From Kitasatospora azatica KCTC 9699 (lineage in GTDB: Bacteria > Actinomycetota > Actinomycetes > Streptomycetales > Streptomycetaceae): DNA of 64,000 nt. The notes beneath the pieces are model-generated. The model was not told the DNA's origin and did no database searches. It was given only the letters and a program-made list of their open reading frames with translations. Location: contig NZ_JQMO01000003.1 in the NCBI RefSeq assembly GCF_000744785.1, positions 310,001 through 374,000 of the forward strand, read 5' to 3'. This document shows positions 38,800 through 46,975 of this stretch, in pieces. The stretch's first letter is position 1. The number at the start of each line of letters is the position of its first letter. Made by a program: the position numbers and the translations under genes.

Positions 38800-39587
38800 A
38801 GGTGCAGCGCCGGGTGCGGGTGGCCGTGCTCGTGCTCGTGGCCGTGCTCGTGTTCGTGCTCGTGCTCGTGGTCGTGCTCGTGCAGTGGGGTCTGCGCGGG
38901 CCGGCGGGCCATCACCGGGACGTGCACCGGCTCGCCGGCGTGCACGGCCAGGGCGCGCTCCAGCAGCTCGCCCCTCCCCACGCCGCCGCGCACCGAGGTC
39001 AGCAGCACCTCCACGCCGGGGTTGACCTGTTGGACGTTCGCGCGAAAGGCCGCCTCGTCGAACCCGACCGCCTCCGCGATGTCGGTCTTGGTCACCACGA
39101 CCAGGTTCGCCAGGCCGAACGCCGTCGGGTACTTCAGTGGTTTGTCCTCGCCCTCGGTCACCGAGGCGAGCGCGACCCGCAGCGATTCGCCCAGCTCGTA
39201 GGAGGCGGGGCAGACCAGGTTCCCGACGTTCTCCACGAAGAGCAGCCGGGTGCCCTCGGGCAGCCAACCGTCCAGCTGGCCCGCCAGCATCTCGGCTTCC
39301 AGGTGGCACAGGCCGTCGGTCAGCACCTGCTTGACCGGCACACCGGAACGGGCCAGCCGCCGCGCGTCGTTCTCGGTGGCGAGGTCCGCGGTGAGCGCGG
39401 CGACCGGGACACCGCGTTCCCGGGCAGCCGTCAACTCTCCCTCCAGCAGAGCGGTCTTGCCGCTTCCCGGGCTGGAGAGCAGGTTGACGGCGATGGTGCC
39501 ACGGGCTGCCAGTTCCTCGCGCAGCCGTCGCGCGCCGAGGTCGTTCTTGGCGAGGACCGCCTGTTGCAGGTCGACCACACGGCACAT
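38796..39587 (-). CDS. hypB: Hydrogenase nickel-insertion GTPase HypB with C-terminal His tail
   Basis: This 263-residue GTPase inserts nickel with HypA. The P-loop is [14 protein letters not shown] (37-50). The G-domain motifs [11 protein letters not shown] and [12 protein letters not shown] are present. The N-terminal CxxCGC nickel site of E. coli HypB is missing; instead the last 28 residues hold 13 His alternating mainly with Glu and Gly, a nickel store placed at the C-terminus. ATG 39587 sits 3 bases after the hypA stop. Confidence 0.94.
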
Positions 39588-39590
39588 GGT

Positions 39591-39983
39591 TCAGCGCTCC
39601 TGGGGAGTCCGTTCGGGGGTGGCGGCGGGCACGCGGTCGTCCTCCCACCGCACACTGACGATCTGCAGCTCACGGCCGGTGAGCAGCTCGGCGGTGACCG
39701 TGCCGCAGACCGGGCAGCTCAGCTCGGGTGGCATGCCGACCAGCCATTCGTCCGCGCAGGGCCCGCACCGGGCGCGGGCCGGCACCGCTTCGGTGACCAG
39801 CTCGCAGCCCTCCAACACGGTGTCGGCGCAGGCCAGTTCGAAGCAGAAGCCGAGCGCGTCGGGCACCACTCCGGCCAGCTCCCCGACCTGGAGCAGCACC
39901 GATCGCACGGCGGTGGCGCCAGCCGCTCGGGCAGCCTCCTCCACCTGGCCGACGACAGCCATCGCGATCGACATCTCGTGCAT
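39591..39983 (-). CDS. hypA: Hydrogenase nickel-incorporation protein HypA
   Basis: This 130-residue protein starts MHEMSIAMAVV, whose His2 is the family nickel ligand. The zinc site is Cys73/Cys76 and Cys90/Cys93. It hands nickel to HypB and on to the large subunit. ATG 39983 follows GGGAGG. There is a 145-base gap with small hairpins between the 34-residue peptide gene and hypA, the largest gap inside the operon. Confidence 0.94.
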   Translation of the reverse strand: MHEMSIAMAVVGQVEEAARAAGATAVRSVLLQVGELAGVVPDALGFCFELACADTVLEGCELVTEAVPARARCGPCADEWLVGMPPELSCPVCGTVTAELLTGRELQIVSVRWEDDRVPAATPERTPQER

Positions 39984-40128
39984 CGGACCTCCCGCACGGC
40001 CGCCCCGTCGGGAGCCGCCGCCCCCCATTACAGGGCGGGTTCCACCGGGCCGCGCGGGCGCCGCGCCGCGGTCGAGGCGCGGCTTAGCCCGTTCGGGCCA
40101 AGGCCGGCTCTCCCGGGCGGGCGGACCG

Positions 40129-40233
40129 TCACATGCTGCGGATCCGCAGGTAGCGCTTGATGTCCGGCATGATCTGGATGGCAGCGCAGACGAGTCCGGC
40201 GATCACCAGGGCACTGATGAGGCACTTCTTCAC
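40129..40233 (-). CDS. 34-residue single-helix membrane peptide (DUF6893-like)
   Basis: GTG 40233 behind AGAGGAA opens a 34-codon frame. The protein has a short basic start (VKKC), one hydrophobic helix (LISALVIAGLVCAAIQI) and a basic end PDIKRYLRIRSM. This matches the pattern of small DUF6893 proteins of streptomycetes, from memory. It lies 17 bases after the protease gene, inside the hydrogenase operon on the same strand. It could anchor or organise the hydrogenase at the membrane, but nothing proves this; relatives also occur elsewhere in such genomes. Confidence 0.72.
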   Translation of the reverse strand: MKKCLISALVIAGLVCAAIQIMPDIKRYLRIRSM

Positions 40234-40250
40234 GGCGTTGTTTCCTCTCG

Positions 40251-40817
40251 TCAGTTCGTGGCCGGGTCGGCCACGTTCGGCAGCAGCGGCGCGCCCGCTG
40301 CTTCCTCGGCCAGCAGCCGGTGGATCAGGCGCACGGCCTCCGGGACCGCCGCCGCGACCGGCTCGCTGAGCCCGATGCCCTCCTCGACGCCGGCCGGCTC
40401 GCAGCCCACCACCAGCGTTCGCCGGGGCGGCACCGATCCGGTGCCGGCACAGAGCGTGCCGAGCAGCGCCAGTACCGCGTCGGGGGTCATCCGGTGCCCG
40501 TCCAGCAGCGCGTCCCCTGGCTCGAGGGCACTGTGCTCGACGTCACTGGATTCGAGAGCGCTGGGCCCGCCCGCCTCGATCAGGTAGAGGGTGCCGGGCT
40601 CACCGCCACGGGCGGTCGCGTCCACCAGGACGAGCGTGTGGTAGCCGTCCAGCAGCTGGTACGCCAGGTGGACGCCGCGCACTCCGATGTCCACCACCTC
40701 GACGTGCTCGGGGAGTTGGCCGGGTGCCAGGCGGCGGACCACCTCGACGCCGAAGCCGTCGTCGCCGAGCAGGATGTTCCCGACCCCGGCGACCAGGGTC
40801 CTCGTCGGCGAGGTCAC
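40251..40817 (-). CDS. Hydrogenase maturation protease (HyaD/HybD family)
   Basis: This 188-residue endopeptidase cuts the C-terminal tail of the large subunit once nickel is in place. It begins RTLVAGVGNILLGDDGFGVEVVRRL, with the first nickel-sensing Glu/Asp position intact, then VVDIGVRG, LVLVDATARGGEPGTLYL and DGHRMTPDAVLALLG (His ligand). Its natural substrate should be HhyL, which still has a tail after DPCLPCGVH. GTG 40817 overlaps the upstream gene by 4 bases. Confidence 0.93.
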   Translation of the reverse strand: MTSPTRTLVAGVGNILLGDDGFGVEVVRRLAPGQLPEHVEVVDIGVRGVHLAYQLLDGYHTLVLVDATARGGEPGTLYLIEAGGPSALESSDVEHSALEPGDALLDGHRMTPDAVLALLGTLCAGTGSVPPRRTLVVGCEPAGVEEGIGLSEPVAAAVPEAVRLIHRLLAEEAAGAPLLPNVADPATN

Positions 40818-42241
40818 GCGTCCTCCAACGGGGCCAACTCGTCGGGCTGGAAGTACAGGAAGCGGCCCTGCTCGCGGCGGATGTCGGCGCCCGGGTCACC
40901 GTCGACGGTGACCGCCAGGTGCACCCCGCCGTCCACGTCGTGCAGCACCGCCTCGACCTGGGCGCTGCGGCCGTGCAGGAAGATGTCCTGGGCGTCGGTG
41001 CGCCGTCGGCCGGGCCGCAGCACCACCCGGCTGCCGGCCCCGATCGGGCGGCCGTCCACGAGCACCTGGTCCCGGTCCGGGTCGACGCTGCGGTCGCTCG
41101 CCGGGTCCCACCACGGGGCACCGGGAGAGAGCAGTTGCTCCAGCGGGTCGGCGGCCGTGGACGCGGCCACGGCCGGTTCGGTGATCTCCCGTAGCGAGCG
41201 GACCACGCCGTGCAGCCGTTCCAGTACCTCGGGGGGCATGGAGTCCGCGAGGTCGATCACGGCGGCCGCCCGCGCGTCGGTACCGCGGGCCTCGCGCTTC
41301 TCCTGGTCGGTCAGCGCGGCGGTGCGCAGGGCGAGGATCTCGTCGATCTCCAGGGCGTCGTAGAGGACGCCGGGGCTCTCCGGGGCGATCGCCGCGTGGT
41401 CCTCCAGGATGATCGGGGAGGAGAGCAGCAGGTCCGTGCTGCCCGGTTCGCCCGCCAGTACCGGCCAGGTGTGCAGGTTCTCGCACCCGGCCGTCGCGGC
41501 CTTGGCCCATTCCGGCGGGTCGGTGGGTGAGAGGAAGGAGCCGTGGTCCAGAGCGAGCAGCAGGTGGGCCGAGACCAGCGAGCGCGGCAGCGCGGCCTCC
41601 CGGTCGGCGGCCGGCTCGGGTGACCAGTCGGAGGTGTTCTCCACCACCGCCGTCAGCTTCCGTACCGAGTACGGTCCGGGGAGCTCGGTCGCCGAGATCC
41701 GCACGGCGCCGCGCAGTTCCTCGCGGCGCCGGACCAGGCGGCCCACCGGGCGGTCGCTCTCGTCGTGGACCGGCTCGATCTCCTCCCGGGCCGGGCTGGC
41801 GAACGGCACCGACCGGATCTCCTCACCCAGTTCGGCGACCGGAACGGCCAGTTGCACCCGCTCCTCCACGCCTTCGTCCCAGGGCGTCAACACCCGCTCG
41901 GCCAGCTCCAGTTCAGCCACCGCCTCGAACGATCCGTCGGCCCGGAGGCGTTGGACGGTGCGTCGCTGGGCGTGCAGGAAGCGCAGCTCGAGGAAGAGCG
42001 TCGCGCCCCGGCGCGGTTCCATCAGGCATTCGGTGCGCTGGAAGCTCTGTTCGCCCTGGTCGGTGCCCCAGGCGGGCGGCACCAGGACGCCGAACTGCCA
42101 GCGCATCCGGTTCTTGGCCGCGGACGCCCGGTAGGGGTAGAGCACATAGCCTTCGAAGAGGACGGCGTCCGCCAGCTGCCGGGCGGCGGAGAACCGGGCC
42201 TCGATCCGCGCGGTGGGAGCGGTGAGCGCGCTGTCGGTCAC
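40814..42241 (-). CDS. Hydrogenase-associated protein of unknown function (475 residues)
   Basis: No known domain is recognisable. The N-terminal third has LFEGYVLYPYRASAAKNRMRWQFGVL and a run of strands. The middle is acidic with SSPIILEDHAAIAPESPGVLYD, typical of proteins stored in hydrogenase operons. The C-terminus has DPDRDQVLVDGRPIGAGSRVVLRPG and RRTDAQDIFLHGRSAQVEAVL, beta-rich. No Cys cluster, signal or membrane helix was seen. The gene overlaps both neighbours (DUF6084 before, protease after) by 4 bases, so it acts with them. Possibly an assembly or oligomer factor; role unproven. Confidence 0.7.
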   Translation of the reverse strand: MTDSALTAPTARIEARFSAARQLADAVLFEGYVLYPYRASAAKNRMRWQFGVLVPPAWGTDQGEQSFQRTECLMEPRRGATLFLELRFLHAQRRTVQRLRADGSFEAVAELELAERVLTPWDEGVEERVQLAVPVAELGEEIRSVPFASPAREEIEPVHDESDRPVGRLVRRREELRGAVRISATELPGPYSVRKLTAVVENTSDWSPEPAADREAALPRSLVSAHLLLALDHGSFLSPTDPPEWAKAATAGCENLHTWPVLAGEPGSTDLLLSSPIILEDHAAIAPESPGVLYDALEIDEILALRTAALTDQEKREARGTDARAAAVIDLADSMPPEVLERLHGVVRSLREITEPAVAASTAADPLEQLLSPGAPWWDPASDRSVDPDRDQVLVDGRPIGAGSRVVLRPGRRRTDAQDIFLHGRSAQVEAVLHDVDGGVHLAVTVDGDPGADIRREQGRFLYFQPDELAPLEDA

Positions 42242-42885
42242 CGGGCGGCTCCGTCCGTCACGCCCGCGCAGTCCAGGAGTTCACGGACCGTCAGCTCCCA
42301 GGAGGGCAGCGCGCGACGGGACCGGAAGGCGAGCAGCTCGGCCATGGTGTCCTGGGACAGTCGGACCCAGCCGCAGCCGGGGAAGTGCTGGTCGACCATC
42401 TCGCGCCAGACCGCGACCGGCAGGCGCAGCCGCGCCTCCCGGTCCCAGGGCACCGGCTCCACGTGGAAGCCGGTGGCGCCGGTGAACGCGGTGCCGGAGA
42501 AGAGCATCAGCAGCGGCACCTCGCCCTCGCCCAGCGCCTGGAAGTAGCGGGTCGCGGCGATGTCCAGGTCGTAACTGCAGGGCACCGCCAGGTCCACCTC
42601 GGTCTCCCCGGTGAAGCCGGGGACCATCAGCGCGACTTCGGCGAACTGCAGCGGCTGCAGCGTGCTGCCCCAGCGCGAGCGCTCACCGAACAGGTCGGCC
42701 AACCCGTCGGCCTCCACGGGCTGGTAGCCGCGCTTGGCCGGTTCGATCCGCAGTTGGCAGCGCAGCGCGATGGCGTGCACCCGGGTGTCGGGGGTGGCGG
42801 TGATCCGCAGCCGGAAGACCAGGGTCGGCCCGGCGGCGTACCGGTCGGCCCGCACACCGGTGCAGCTGAAGGAGAACTCGGTCAC
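42238..42885 (-). CDS. DUF6084-like hydrogenase-associated protein
   Basis: This 215-residue protein is beta-strand rich (EFSFSCTGVRADRYA; LVFRLRITATPDTRVHAIAL; TEVDLAVPCSYDLDIAATRYFQAL), with a tail containing FPGCGWVRLSQDTMAELLAFRSR. I know this family only as a companion of actinobacterial HhySL hydrogenases. No enzymatic motif or Cys cluster is visible. It overlaps DUF5947 and the 475-residue gene by 4 bases each. Function unknown. Confidence 0.72.
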   Translation of the reverse strand: MTEFSFSCTGVRADRYAAGPTLVFRLRITATPDTRVHAIALRCQLRIEPAKRGYQPVEADGLADLFGERSRWGSTLQPLQFAEVALMVPGFTGETEVDLAVPCSYDLDIAATRYFQALGEGEVPLLMLFSGTAFTGATGFHVEPVPWDREARLRLPVAVWREMVDQHFPGCGWVRLSQDTMAELLAFRSRRALPSWELTVRELLDCAGVTDGAAR

Positions 42886-43505
42886 GACCGTGCCACCTCC
42901 TGCGCCACCCGGGCCCGCCCGGCCACGTACCCGAAGAGCTCCTCCAGCTCGCTCCTGGCCCGGGCGCCGCCGTCGAATCCCTTCCAGTGCAGGCGCATCC
43001 GCCCGACCAGCTGGTAGCAGACGTCGATCGGGACCAGGAAGCAGGCGTACCCGTCGCGGGAGCGGCGCAGCAGCAGCGCCTCGACGTCCGGTTCCAGCAG
43101 CGTGGCCAGCCGGGTGCCGTCCAGCACCGCCTGCCAGGCCGCGGGGTCCAGCTCGCTCTCGGTGGCGCCGGCCGGGCTCGGGTAGAGCGCGACCAGCCGG
43201 TCCATCGCGCTGTTGCGGAAGAAGAACGCGACACCGACCGGGATCTGGAACAGGTCCCAAGTGCTGTCGTCCAGCCGCAGCTGAGGGTCGGTCAGGTAGC
43301 GGTCCGGGACGGTGCGGTACCTGCCCCCGGCGGCGCCGGAGTGCTCGAAGAGCAGGGCGCACGGGGTGCAGGCGCAGCTGAGCGAGCGCTGCTCGATGTC
43401 GACCAGGTGGCGGTGGCCGTGCTCGGCCACCACCGCGCCGCACAGCTCGCAGCGCTCCGGCGCGGGCTCGCGCGGTGCCAGGAAGCGGCGCAGACCTGCC
43501 GTCAC
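42882..43505 (-). CDS. DUF5947-like protein with a rubredoxin-like Cys cluster
   Basis: This 207-residue protein has CELC at 19-22, His29/31/33 in EHGHRH, and CACTPC at 44-49. The arrangement CxxC-(24)-CxxC plus one extra Cys is rubredoxin or zinc-ribbon-like. The rest has FFFRNSAMDRLVALYPSPAGATE, then CFLVPIDVCYQLVGRMRLHW. No transmembrane segment. It sits between the NifU-like and DUF6084 genes, overlapping both by 4 bases. An electron carrier or metallochaperone role is inferred, not shown; plain zinc binding is the simpler alternative. Confidence 0.72.
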   Translation of the reverse strand: MTAGLRRFLAPREPAPERCELCGAVVAEHGHRHLVDIEQRSLSCACTPCALLFEHSGAAGGRYRTVPDRYLTDPQLRLDDSTWDLFQIPVGVAFFFRNSAMDRLVALYPSPAGATESELDPAAWQAVLDGTRLATLLEPDVEALLLRRSRDGYACFLVPIDVCYQLVGRMRLHWKGFDGGARARSELEELFGYVAGRARVAQEVARS

Positions 43506-44032
43506 GAGCCGCCGCCCGGGGCCCGGGTGGAGATCTGCAGCAGCGCCGACTCCTTGGCCGCGCCCTCCAGCTCCACCGAGGTCACCTCGGGTGCGAGCCC
43601 GGCGAGCGCGTCGGCGACGGTCTCGCGGGTCGCGGCCGAGGTGCTGGGGCAGCCGCAACCTCCACCGGTGGACCGCACCCGCAGGGTGCCGGTGGCCACG
43701 GCGAAGTCGACCACCTCGACCGGCTGGTGCGCCAGGGCCCGGGCGATCCTGCTCGGCAGGTCCTCCGGGTGCAGCTCGTGCAGCACCAGCAGGTTCGCCA
43801 CCAGCTCGTCGTCCAGCAGGGTCTTCGCCACCGTGGCACTCCCCAGCAGGTCGACGATCCGGGCCAGGCCGGCGCCGTAGAACTCCATCAGGACGCGGAC
43901 CAGTTCCTCGGCCGCGGCCGAGGCGTCCCGGTCGCCACCGGCCGCGAACTGGTCGAGGATCTCCTCGATCCGCCGCCCGACCTGCTCCGCGTTCACCGCA
44001 CGGACCGGCGCGGCCGCCGCCACGGCGCTCAT
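43502..44032 (-). CDS. NifU-like Fe-S cluster protein of the hydrogenase operon
   Basis: This 176-residue protein has a helical N-terminal half (EELVRVLMEFYGAGLARIVD) and a C-terminal NifU-like domain. The cluster-binding motif usually is CxxC followed by PSS; here it reads GGGCGCPSTSAATRETV, with Cys126 and Cys128 only one residue apart. ATG 44032 overlaps the hhyL stop (ATGA). It probably supplies or repairs Fe-S clusters for HhyS. The helical N-terminal part differs from classical NifU. Confidence 0.8.
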   Translation of the reverse strand: MSAVAAAAPVRAVNAEQVGRRIEEILDQFAAGGDRDASAAAEELVRVLMEFYGAGLARIVDLLGSATVAKTLLDDELVANLLVLHELHPEDLPSRIARALAHQPVEVVDFAVATGTLRVRSTGGGCGCPSTSAATRETVADALAGLAPEVTSVELEGAAKESALLQISTRAPGGGS

Positions 44033-45813
44033 CCGCCCAGTCCGCTCAGGCCGGTGGGCACGTGCATCTGCTTCACGGTCCGGCCTTCGCCGGTGTACAT
44101 GTGGACACCGCACGGCAGGCAGGGGTCGAAGCTGCGCACCGCGCGCATGATGTCGATGCCCTTGAAGTTCTCCGGGGTGTTCTCCTCGAAGATCGGCGTG
44201 TTCTGCACCGCGTCCTCGTAGGGGCCGGGTGTCCCGAACGTGTCGCGGGTGCTCGCGTTCCACGGGGTCGGCGGGTAGGGGTGGTAGTTGGCGATCTTGC
44301 CGTCCCGGATCACCAGGTGGTGCGAGAGGACCCCGCGCACGGCCTCGGTGAAGCCGACGCCCACACCCTCCTCGGGCACCTCGAACTTCTCCCAGGTCCG
44401 GGTGCGCCCGGCCCGCACCTCGGCGAGGCCCTTCTCGGCGAAGTGCAGTGCCACGGCGGCCGCGTAGGCCTGGAAGTAGGTGCGCGCGCGGTTGCGTTCC
44501 AGCGCGTTGCTCCACTTCGGGATCTTCCACTCGAAGGTGGCCTCCGGCTTGGTCATCGTCCTCGGCAGGTTGATCACCACGCTGTGGCCGGTGGCCTTGA
44601 CGTAGCCGATGTCGACCAGGCCGGAGAGCGCCGTGGACCAGAGCCGGGCGATCGGGCCACCGCCGGTGTCCAGCGCCAGGTAGTCCTTGCCGTCGAACCA
44701 GCGCGGCGACATCACCCAGCTGTACTTGTCGTCGAAGTTCCGCTTCTGCGGAGCCGGGATGGTGTGCTGGTTCCAGGGGTGGCGCGGATCGACCGGATTG
44801 CCGAGCGGGTCGTGGGTGACGAACTGCTCCTTGCCCTGCCAGTCCTCGTAGTAGGAGCTGCCGAGCAGGATCCGGATGCCCAGGTTGATCTCGGTGAGGT
44901 CGTTGGTGACGAGCTTGCCGTCCACCACGATGCCCGGGGTGACGAACATCCGCCGGCCCCAGTCGGTCATGTTGCGGTAGGTGAAGTCGCAGTACTCGGG
45001 GTCGTTGAGCGCGCCCCAGCAACCCAGCATGATCCGCCGGCGGCCGACCTCCTCGTAGCCGGGCAGCGCCTCGTAGAAGAAGTCGAAGAGGTCGTCGTGC
45101 AGCGGGACGACCCGCTTCATGAACTCCACGTACCGCATCAGGCGGCTCAGGTAGTCGGTGAAGAGCTGGACCGAGGCGACGGTGCCGGTGCCGCCCGGGT
45201 AGAGCGTGGAGGGGTGCACATGGCGGCCCTCCATGAGGCAGAACATCTCCCGGGTGTAGCGGCTGACCTGCAGCGCCTCACGGTAGAACTCGCCCTCGAT
45301 CGGATTGAGCGAGCGCATGATGTCGGCGATCGTCTTGTAGCCGTGCTCGCCGGCGTGCGGCGACGGGGTGCGCTCGGCGAGCTCCAGGACGCCCGGGTTG
45401 GTCTCCCGGACCATCTTCTCGCAGTAGTCCACCCCGACCAGGTTCTCCTGGAAGATGTTGTGGTCGAACATGTACTCCGCGGACTCGCCCAGGTTGATCA
45501 ACCACTCGCCCAGGTGCGGCGGTTTCACGCCGTAGGCCATGTTCTGCGCGTACACCGAGCAGGTCGCGTGGTTGTCGCCGCAGATACCGCAGATCCGGCT
45601 GGTGATGAAGTGCGCGTCCCGGGGGTCCTTGCCGCGCATGAAGACGCTGTAGCCGCGGAACACCGATGAGGTGCTGTAGCACTCGGCGACCCGCTTCTGC
45701 TTGAAGTCGATCTTCGTGTGGATGCCGAGGCTGCCCACGATCCGGGTGATCGGATCCCAGGACATCTCCGTCAGGCCGCTGCCGTCGCCGGCCGCCTTCG
45801 TCGTCGGTGCCAT
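44029..45813 (-). CDS. hhyL: Group 5 (1h) [NiFe] hydrogenase large subunit HhyL
   Basis: This 594-residue subunit holds the NiFe site. The N-terminal ligand motif is ITSRICGICGDNHAT (Cys75, Cys78), and the C-terminal motif FDPCLPCGVH (Cys565, Cys568). A 23-residue tail after His571 would be removed by the protease encoded in the operon. Long conserved blocks such as DPITRIVGSLGIHTKIDFKQ and CLMEGRHVHPSTLYPGG identify the actinobacterial high-affinity class. Start ATG 45813 fits the family; ATG 45837 adds eight residues. This class oxidises atmospheric H2 in streptomycete spores. Confidence 0.96.
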   Translation of the reverse strand: MAPTTKAAGDGSGLTEMSWDPITRIVGSLGIHTKIDFKQKRVAECYSTSSVFRGYSVFMRGKDPRDAHFITSRICGICGDNHATCSVYAQNMAYGVKPPHLGEWLINLGESAEYMFDHNIFQENLVGVDYCEKMVRETNPGVLELAERTPSPHAGEHGYKTIADIMRSLNPIEGEFYREALQVSRYTREMFCLMEGRHVHPSTLYPGGTGTVASVQLFTDYLSRLMRYVEFMKRVVPLHDDLFDFFYEALPGYEEVGRRRIMLGCWGALNDPEYCDFTYRNMTDWGRRMFVTPGIVVDGKLVTNDLTEINLGIRILLGSSYYEDWQGKEQFVTHDPLGNPVDPRHPWNQHTIPAPQKRNFDDKYSWVMSPRWFDGKDYLALDTGGGPIARLWSTALSGLVDIGYVKATGHSVVINLPRTMTKPEATFEWKIPKWSNALERNRARTYFQAYAAAVALHFAEKGLAEVRAGRTRTWEKFEVPEEGVGVGFTEAVRGVLSHHLVIRDGKIANYHPYPPTPWNASTRDTFGTPGPYEDAVQNTPIFEENTPENFKGIDIMRAVRSFDPCLPCGVHMYTGEGRTVKQMHVPTGLSGLGG

Positions 45814-45847
45814 CGTGTCTGCCGAGCCCTTCTTCATGCCGGGAGTT

Positions 45848-45913: not shown

Positions 45914-46975
45914 TCACCACGGCTTGCGGTACCCGGTGGTCAGCTTCTGGCCGGTGTGGCGCCACTTCGGCTCCTTGTCCAGCGTCGACGCCGTGATCGA
46001 CCGCAGCCGGCGCACGACCGCGCCGTAGACGCCGCTGGCGGTGCTGGAGACCTTGGCGCCGGGCGGCTCGTCCATGAACGGCATGAACTTGTCCGGGAAT
46101 CCGGGCATCGTGCAGCCGATGCAGATGCCGCCCACGTTGGGGCAGCCGCCGAGGCCGTTCATCCAGCCGCGCTTGGGCACGTTGCACTTCACGACCGGCC
46201 CCCAACAGCCCAGCTTCACCAGGCACTTGGGAGAGTCGTAGGTGGTTGCGAACTGGCCCTGCTCGTAGTAGCCGGCCCGGTCGCACCCCTCGTGCACGGT
46301 GGCGCCGAAGAGCCAGGTCGGGCGCAGCTGCTCGTCCAGCGGGATCATCGGGGCCGCGCCGGTGGCCTGGTGCAGCAGGTAGACCAGCGTCTCGGAGAAG
46401 TTGTCGGGCTGGATCGGGCAGCCTGGCACGCAGACGATCGGGATGCCCGCCTTGGACTTCCAGTCCCAGCCGAGGTAGTCGGGCACGCCCATGGCGCCGG
46501 TCGGGTTGCCGGCCATCGCGTGGATGCCGCCGTAGGTCGCGCAGGTGCCGATGGCGACCACCGCGAGGGCCTTGGGGGCGAGCCGGTCCAGCCACTCGCT
46601 GGTGGTGATCGGCTGACCGGTCGCCGGATCGTCGCCGAACCCGCACCAGTAGCCTTCCTTCTTGATCGACTCGTTGGGGATCGAGCCCTCGACGACCAGC
46701 ACGAACGGGTCGATCTCGCCCCGCTCGCCCTTGAAGAACCACTCGATGAAGGTGTCGGCGCCCTGGACCGGGCCGCACTCGAAGTCGATCAGCGGCCAGT
46801 GCACCGCGATCTTGGGCAGGCCCGGAAGCGCACTGGTGGCGATCTCCTCGATGCTGGGCTGGGTGGCGGCGGTCAGCGACACGGAGTCGCCGTCGCAGCT
46901 CAGGCCGGCGTTGATCCAGAGGATGTGGATCACGGGCTCGTCGGTGGCGGGGGTCGCCTCAGCGGTGTCGGTCAT
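45914..46975 (-). CDS. hhyS: Group 5 (1h) [NiFe] hydrogenase small subunit HhyS
   Basis: This 353-residue subunit carries three Fe-S clusters. The proximal motif reads LSCDGDSVSL: Cys27 is kept but the next usual Cys is Asp30, giving the three-Cys one-Asp site known for the oxygen-tolerant actinobacterial type. Other cluster Cys lie in IGTCATYGG, CVPGCPI, HEGCDRAGYY, CLVKLGCWGP and GGCPNVGGICIGCTMPGF. There is no Tat signal, so the enzyme faces the cytoplasm. ATG 46975 follows GAGGAGG and overlaps the end of hypX by 17 bases. Confidence 0.96.
   Translation of the reverse strand: MTDTAEATPATDEPVIHILWINAGLSCDGDSVSLTAATQPSIEEIATSALPGLPKIAVHWPLIDFECGPVQGADTFIEWFFKGERGEIDPFVLVVEGSIPNESIKKEGYWCGFGDDPATGQPITTSEWLDRLAPKALAVVAIGTCATYGGIHAMAGNPTGAMGVPDYLGWDWKSKAGIPIVCVPGCPIQPDNFSETLVYLLHQATGAAPMIPLDEQLRPTWLFGATVHEGCDRAGYYEQGQFATTYDSPKCLVKLGCWGPVVKCNVPKRGWMNGLGGCPNVGGICIGCTMPGFPDKFMPFMDEPPGAKVSSTASGVYGAVVRRLRSITASTLDKEPKWRHTGQKLTTGYRKPW

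Follow-up and report, generated by a model that had tools for sequence, protein, structure and literature searches.

A DUF6893 micro-gene of group 1h [NiFe]-hydrogenase clusters and its candidate role as a membrane tether

We analyzed a 64,000-nucleotide stretch of DNA from Kitasatospora azatica KCTC 9699 (contig NZ_JQMO01000003.1, positions 310,001 to 374,000 of the forward strand; hereafter, the window), which carries an operon for a [NiFe]-hydrogenase with the small and large subunits HhyS and HhyL (together, HhySL). A 34-codon frame at 40129..40233, between the genes of the maturation protease and HypA, is a genuine micro-gene that is broadly conserved in group 1h hydrogenase clusters. Its product belongs to an already catalogued Pfam family, DUF6893, which is filed without function. 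We regard the peptide as a good candidate for the missing link between the group 1h enzyme and the membrane.

The micro-gene consists of the following elements.

40129..40233, minus strand: peptide gene, member of DUF6893, 34 codons with a GTG start and a TGA stop (list of open reading frames (ORFs), Pfam match)
40243..40249, minus strand: ribosome-binding site GAGAGGA, 9 bases 5' of the GTG and directly after the protease stop codon (read from the sequence)
40168..40224, minus strand: codons of the predicted membrane helix (residues 4-22; hydropathy of 2.48 over 19 residues)
40132..40167, minus strand: codons of the conserved C-terminal dodecamer PDIKRYLRIRSM (conservation across 148 distinct profile-selected peptides)

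The peptide sequence is (M)KKCLISALVIAGLVCAAIQIMPDIKRYLRIRSM. A preliminary description made from the sequence alone had noted a GTG-started frame of 34 codons, preceded by a ribosome site and lying 17 bases beyond the protease gene; the ORF list and the GAGAGGA motif confirm the frame and its site, and the minus-strand ORF coordinates give exactly this spacing. It had also described a basic-ended membrane helix, in agreement with the best 19-residue stretch (Kyte-Doolittle 2.48, beginning at residue 4) and the basic C-terminal end. The GC contents at the three codon positions are 0.53/0.38/0.91, as expected for a real frame in a G+C-rich genome, and the frame thus fits translation; for 41 distinct genus-level copies the values are 0.64/0.40/0.95. 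An AlphaFold2 model based on a 29-row alignment shows one helix spanning residues 2-33 (mean pLDDT 90). No homologue of the peptide was found in the PDB at E 10.

The Pfam match is to PF21833 (DUF6893) and scores 44.3 bits (cut-off 24.6), with residues 5-34 aligned to positions 3-32 of the 32-position profile. NCBIfam gave no match up to E 1. In the open-licence PMC literature we found no paper with DUF6893 as a text term and no description of such a peptide with a group 1h hydrogenase, which may be in print elsewhere. The frame is present in five annotated plasmids (Kitasatospora NBC_00039, S. fungicidicus, M. intracellulare, C. necator pHG1 and M. parvus), despite the lack of a gene at this place in their gene tables, which are said to be incomplete. 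Compared with PF21833, our set adds loci of five non-Actinomycetota phyla, longer forms of up to 80 residues and proline-less forms, which are known by our own profile and not scored on the Pfam model. By that profile, the family is wider than DUF6893 as catalogued and reaches six phyla.

We compared the occurrence of the peptide with that of HhyL. In a genus sample of 70 genomes, DUF6893 matches over the Pfam cut-off and HhyL matches at E up to 1e-50 were counted. The peptide was found in 42 genomes, all within the 43 that have HhyL, and in none of the 27 without it (Fisher 1.5e-18). The odd genome with HhyL and no peptide (G003) has only a 73% HhyL type. Each of the 55 peptide-bearing loci in the genus, where some genomes are represented twice, also has a protease gene together with hypA or hypB.

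In a phylum sample of 396 Actinomycetota genomes, with up to about 19 peptide candidates scored per genome, DUF6893 exceeded the cut-off in 35 and HhyL matched with at least 65% identity in 38. Both were found in 26 genomes, the peptide only in 9, HhyL only in 12 and neither in 349. Hydrogenase genes lay within about 1.5 kb at 29 of the 30 peptide loci returned from this sample. A general Streptomycetaceae membrane micro-protein independent of hydrogenase was considered and rejected on the basis of the co-occurrence. Fourteen genomes have only a 38-46% large-subunit match; the peptide is absent in 12 of them, and in the other two (G285 and G338) it stands beside accessory genes or hypC.

The discordant genomes were inspected individually. 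In six of those with the peptide only, the contig is short or ends nearby, and the neighbors of the peptide are accessory genes (G258, G285, G339, G359 and G440) or hypC (G338). The G283 match is a partial match within a long frame and was rejected as false; G219 and G264 are considered below. Among those with HhyL only, no more than about 2 kb of contig remains after hhyL in G111, G368 and G386, the HhyL match is only partial in G253, and a diverged peptide candidate is present in G197 and G240. No candidate was found in G438. Neither the protease nor the peptide was recognised in G251, as if they had been deleted together; there (L102:6455-7654), a gene for a 475-residue (475-aa) accessory protein matched only to residue 261 and hypA follows directly. 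The peptide was not found in a clade with 65-67% HhyL identity (G169, G172, G193 and G333); contig ends cut G172 and G333 before the usual place, and at the clade's loci L111 and L113 they cut off the stretch after the 475-aa gene. An own membrane anchor on HhyS in the peptide-less lineages was considered and rejected, none being found by hydropathy: hhyS of L110-L113 encodes no C-terminal anchor (best stretch 1.41-1.86).

A second group 1h cluster type (70-73%) occurs in Streptomycetaceae (L105-L109 and L127), in which DUF6084 was not recognised. Four of its six loci (L105, L106, L108 and L127) have a candidate one-helix peptide whose tail extends past the conserved Met, and L107 and L109 have no candidate. 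A second DUF6893-like peptide is encoded at L093:4042-4143 (minus strand) and L115:2152-2253 (plus strand), in two genomes of one actinobacterial family. After it comes a protein that is rich in Lys, Pro and Ala and contains repeated MPSVLG motifs, and a small Cys-containing protein nearby is, by eye, presumably HypC-like.

For the other phyla, we used our own profile, built from 31 seed peptides, and accepted matches of at least 10 bits on the hhyL strand near a protease or hhyS-like gene. Among 29,236 reversed or shuffled frames, the maxima were 8.6 and 7.6 bits against this threshold of 10. The named loci are the best 80 of 573 HhyL relatives, and according to their record titles they belong to Pseudomonadota, Acidobacteriota, Verrucomicrobiota, Chloroflexota, Planctomycetota and Actinomycetota. 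The protease region is complete in 68 of these 80 loci, and the peptide was found in 63 of them; the other 12 loci, which are incomplete, gave it in 2 cases. The misses include sub-threshold look-alikes at the right place in L143 and L193 (6.9 and 8.6 bits) and a look-alike on the opposite strand in L144 (24.1 bits).

The peptide was also tied to HhyL in whole-genome samples. Among 199 Acidobacteriota genomes, it was found in 8 of 9 with HhyL, two of them through short copies discussed below, versus 0 of 190 without HhyL (Fisher 1.7e-13); HhyL lies near a contig end in the ninth. In Verrucomicrobiota (n = 194), the three HhyL genomes are the three best peptide genomes. Weak partial matches in long frames of G780, G786 and G833 (E 8e-4 to 6e-3) were not counted as peptides. 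Eight whole genomes of other phyla gave ten profile matches, nine of them at hydrogenase-locus coordinates; the remaining one, in G466, lies about 3 kb beyond the examined locus stretch.

These data bear on whether the frame is a gene at all. It is short, and a foldable G+C-rich stretch lies next to it, as would suit a leader peptide, an RNA element or an untranslated chance ORF. However, the amino-acid sequence is conserved over six phyla, the codon-position GC is that of a coding frame, and the peptide changes its place within the cluster, occurring after the protease gene, before it or before hhyS. An Rfam scan of 39500-40900 gave no match. We rejected a chance ORF or leader peptide on the strength of the conservation, the codon-position GC and the shifting gene order, and consider this whole class of explanation extremely improbable. 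The neighboring stretch, 39984-40128 between the peptide gene and hypA, is strongly foldable (z -1.99) and possibly forms the border of two transcripts.

The peptides share a variable helix and a fixed tail. The following counts are for 148 distinct peptides of 31-80 residues, which were selected with the profile (31 seeds, score of at least 10), so that the counts are partly circular; start codons were chosen by rule of thumb, and the peptides of the Streptomycetaceae 70-73% clade fall outside these statistics. The last 12 residues follow the pattern P-D-x-x-R-Y-x-x-I-x-x-M. Met is final in all 148, Arg occupies position -8 in 147, Tyr position -7 in 146, Asp or Glu position -11 in 143 and Pro position -12 in 126. 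The hydrophobic part is variable, yet 99% of the peptides reach a 17-residue hydropathy of 1.6. Longer forms in Acidobacteriota have a spacer between helix and tail and retain the tail, with Leu for Tyr in L159. Such a combination of a free helix and a fixed C-terminal dodecamer would be expected if the peptide were an anchor with a docking tail. The C-terminal flank is more basic than the N-terminal flank in 126 peptides, equally basic in 14 and less basic in 8. According to the positive-inside rule, the basic flank of a membrane helix faces the cytoplasm, and the tail would thus lie in the cytoplasm, where HhySL should be.

The operon around the peptide gene is read from the minus strand in the order hypX-like gene, hhyS, hhyL, NifU-like gene, DUF5947 gene, DUF6084 gene, 475-aa protein gene, protease gene, peptide gene, hypA, hypB and further hyp genes. 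The names of hypX and the later hyp genes are in part our assumption, based on synteny with annotated relatives. The genes nearest to the peptide are as follows.

39591..39983, minus strand: hypA, first of the hyp maturation genes downstream of the peptide (Pfam)
40251..40817, minus strand: hydrogenase maturation protease (Pfam and NCBIfam matches)
40814..42241, minus strand: 475-aa conserved accessory protein, without a family match in Pfam or NCBIfam
42238..42885, minus strand: DUF6084 accessory protein (Pfam)
42882..43658, minus strand: DUF5947 accessory protein (Pfam)
43502..44044, minus strand: NifU-like protein, HhyE-like (Pfam, 23.1 bits, under the cut-off of 27)
44029..45837, minus strand: hhyL, group 1h-type large subunit (Pfam, identity, PDB match)
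45914..46975, minus strand: hhyS, small subunit (Pfam; no membrane segment by hydropathy)

Published work is cited here by PMC number, and all statements drawn from it refer to the available excerpts. The name HhyE for the NifU-like protein is from PMC6883350. The window HhyL shares 77.4% identity with the Cupriavidus necator H16 enzyme, which PMC9561532 classes as group 1h, and its best PDB match is 5aa5 HofG, from the structure of the same enzyme. On this identity, the 5aa5 match and the HhyS hydropathy of 1.45, the window cluster is, by sequence, of group 1h. The nearest named HhyL relative in the plasmid collection is from Kitasatospora sp. NBC_00039 (97.2%). The best 19-residue hydropathy is 1.45 for HhyS and 1.08 for HhyL, so neither has a membrane segment and HhySL lacks an anchor of its own, as the preliminary description had held. 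Among the 15 operon products only the peptide, at 2.48, exceeds 2, followed by HypE (1.91), HypX (1.73), HypF (1.48), and HhyS and HypA (both 1.45). On this measure, no other product of the operon in the window is clearly a membrane protein.

We therefore considered what the peptide does. It is probably, in our judgement, a one-helix membrane anchor whose tail docks on HhySL. Its N-terminal part would cross the membrane once, and the basic dodecamer (PDIKRYLRIRSM-COOH) would lie in the cytoplasm and dock on the anchorless HhySL. The docked peptide would hold HhySL at the membrane, the site at which the electrons of the enzyme are passed to the quinone pool. We propose the anchor role in group 1h from the predicted helix, its hydropathy and the charge of its flanks. 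That the peptide is translated, inserts into the membrane with its C terminus inside, binds HhySL and affects activity are steps that we infer.

The gene order points to two possible partners. We placed 64 distinct peptides of the named loci by their nearest recognised genes, hypF not being counted. The peptide lies between protease and hypA in 21, between the 475-aa gene and protease in 17, between protease and hypC in 16, between protease and hhyS in 4, and after the protease with nothing recognised beyond in 3. In single cases its neighbors are the 475-aa gene and hhyS, a protease gene not being recognised (L183), or it lies before an additional hhyS-like gene (L172) or on the opposite strand upstream of hhyS (L144). 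An extra hhyS-like gene of this kind was seen in the Acidobacteriota loci L148, L149, L150, L151, L161 and L172, where it lies upstream of hhyS-hhyL at a distance of about 3-4 kb; the peptide of L172 is DUF6893-like and stands directly before it.

With the protease or 475-aa gene as a recognised neighbor of 62 of the 64 placed peptides, the peptide might instead anchor or activate the accessory and maturation set (protease, 475-aa protein, DUF6084 and DUF5947 proteins) at the membrane and act in assembly. G219 and G264, in which peptide and protease remain together, fit this explanation as well. The Verrucomicrobiota speak against it. Two of their genomes (2.2 and 2.5 Mb) match the ammonia/methane monooxygenase family PF02461 4 and 3 times, respectively, and we take them to be methanotroph-like, probably relatives of Methylacidiphilum. 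In both, the protease, 475-aa and DUF6084 genes are on the opposite strand behind hhyL, whereas the peptide frame is directly before hhyS-hhyL and ends less than 100 bases from hhyS; in one (L228), the frame has only GTG or TTG starts and no ATG. Four other Verrucomicrobiota loci, with the peptide between protease and hhyS, and L183 point the same way. Because the peptide stays with hhySL in the split clusters, HhySL is favored as its partner, and we consider a role in assembly unlikely.

Several observations weigh against the tether. At most named loci the peptide adjoins the protease gene and not hhyS. G264 (two contigs, 97% completeness) has the peptide, protease and hyp genes (L086:6077-6675) without an HhyL match, and no structural hydrogenase genes were found in the 5.5 kb beyond the protease, where the genes look unrelated and, by eye, presumably serve haem biosynthesis. 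G219, Mycobacterium-like by inference, keeps the peptide, protease and hyp genes (L082:5487-6591) in a decayed cluster with hhyS in fragments and no hhyL found. Both genomes point the other way, towards the maturation set. No peptide was found at L110 and L112 of the 65-67% clade, where the stretch after the 475-aa gene is covered, or by profile at the named loci L164 and L180. The match counted in the Acidobacteriota genomes G481 and G556 is to a short copy, which lies apart from hydrogenase genes on a separate contig; no hydrogenase gene was recognised in 15 kb around these copies (L229 near 7604, L230 near 7467), and the operons of both genomes carry the longer type (own profile, 20.5 and 18.6 bits). 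The pN/pS values (uncorrected and only weakly informative) are 0.435 for close pairs, 0.46 for the tail and 0.98 for the loosely aligned helix. The C. necator plasmid carries the peptide gene, and its enzyme, reported as cytoplasmic, was purified from the cytoplasm and has low affinity (PMC7174314). Finally, Methylacidiphilum fumariolicum has two other candidate membrane proteins according to the same paper.

The last point, together with the group 1h lineages lacking the peptide, would suit another explanation, in which HhySL associates with the membrane through HhyE, the DUF proteins or lipid contact, the role of the peptide being that of a micro-protein acting in regulation or stability. 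Such micro-proteins occur on other respiratory complexes. However, the two M. fumariolicum candidates are called absent in Actinobacteria and Acidobacteria (PMC7174314), where the peptide is common, and we regard this explanation as quite improbable. The tether idea raised in the preliminary description is thus favored over its rivals by co-occurrence, the docking-like tail and the adjacency to hhySL in the split cluster, while its mechanism stays conditional.

Literature on known enzymes provides a place for such an anchor. In the excerpts of PMC7174314, Hyd-1h of M. fumariolicum has no transmembrane helix or signal peptide and yet is membrane-associated, possibly via an unknown redox partner; its affinity drops on isolation, from 140 to 300 nM, and membrane association is likewise described in M. 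smegmatis and Pyrinomonas. The M. smegmatis operons are described as having no cytochrome-b-like subunit, HhyE being proposed as the electron acceptor (PMC6883350). The S. avermitilis hydrogenase genes form three transcription units, and the available part of PMC4767420 names no such peptide; the same holds for the excerpts of PMC12319191, PMC10657181 and PMC11018855.

The peptide was compared with known hydrogenase-associated membrane proteins. According to the excerpts of PMC9561532, short transmembrane proteins are described for groups 1l and 1m and none for 1h. HylTM1-5 of group 1l and two one-helix proteins of group 1m are, like the peptide, short predicted transmembrane proteins in atmospheric-H2-type clusters; those of group 1m have 82-92 residues versus 34 for the peptide, compared by description only. 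At L116 (8.6 kb, 43%-type large subunit), no small membrane ORF was found on the plus strand. HucM of Huc (group 2a) joins an otherwise soluble hydrogenase to the membrane, as proposed for the peptide; it is a coiled-coil protein of about 190 residues that forms a tube (PMC10017518), whereas the peptide has one helix and a 12-residue tail. With 34 residues, the peptide was rejected as a HucM-type scaffold. The cytochrome b anchors of group 1d hydrogenases share the anchoring role and are haem-binding, multi-helix subunits (PMC6883350), for which the peptide is too small.

A bolder proposal, which we hold to be doubtful, makes the peptide an obligatory third subunit of the group 1h enzyme, with the near-invariant Arg-Tyr and the C-terminal Met forming part of a quinone-reducing site at the surface of the membrane. 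If this were true, loss on purification and escape from ordinary gels at about 4 kDa would explain why the high H2 affinity seen in membranes is lost in the isolated enzyme.

According to a hypothesis stated in PMC7174314, the soil sink of atmospheric H2 is driven by high-affinity [NiFe]-hydrogenases, including group 1h. The micro-gene, easily overlooked owing to its small size, accompanies the group 1h enzyme, with which many soil bacteria live on atmospheric hydrogen. The tether, if true, would answer a question left by PMC7174314 in its available part, namely how the group 1h enzyme comes to sit on the membrane without an anchor. Why affinity is lost on isolation is also left open there, and the peptide makes both questions testable.
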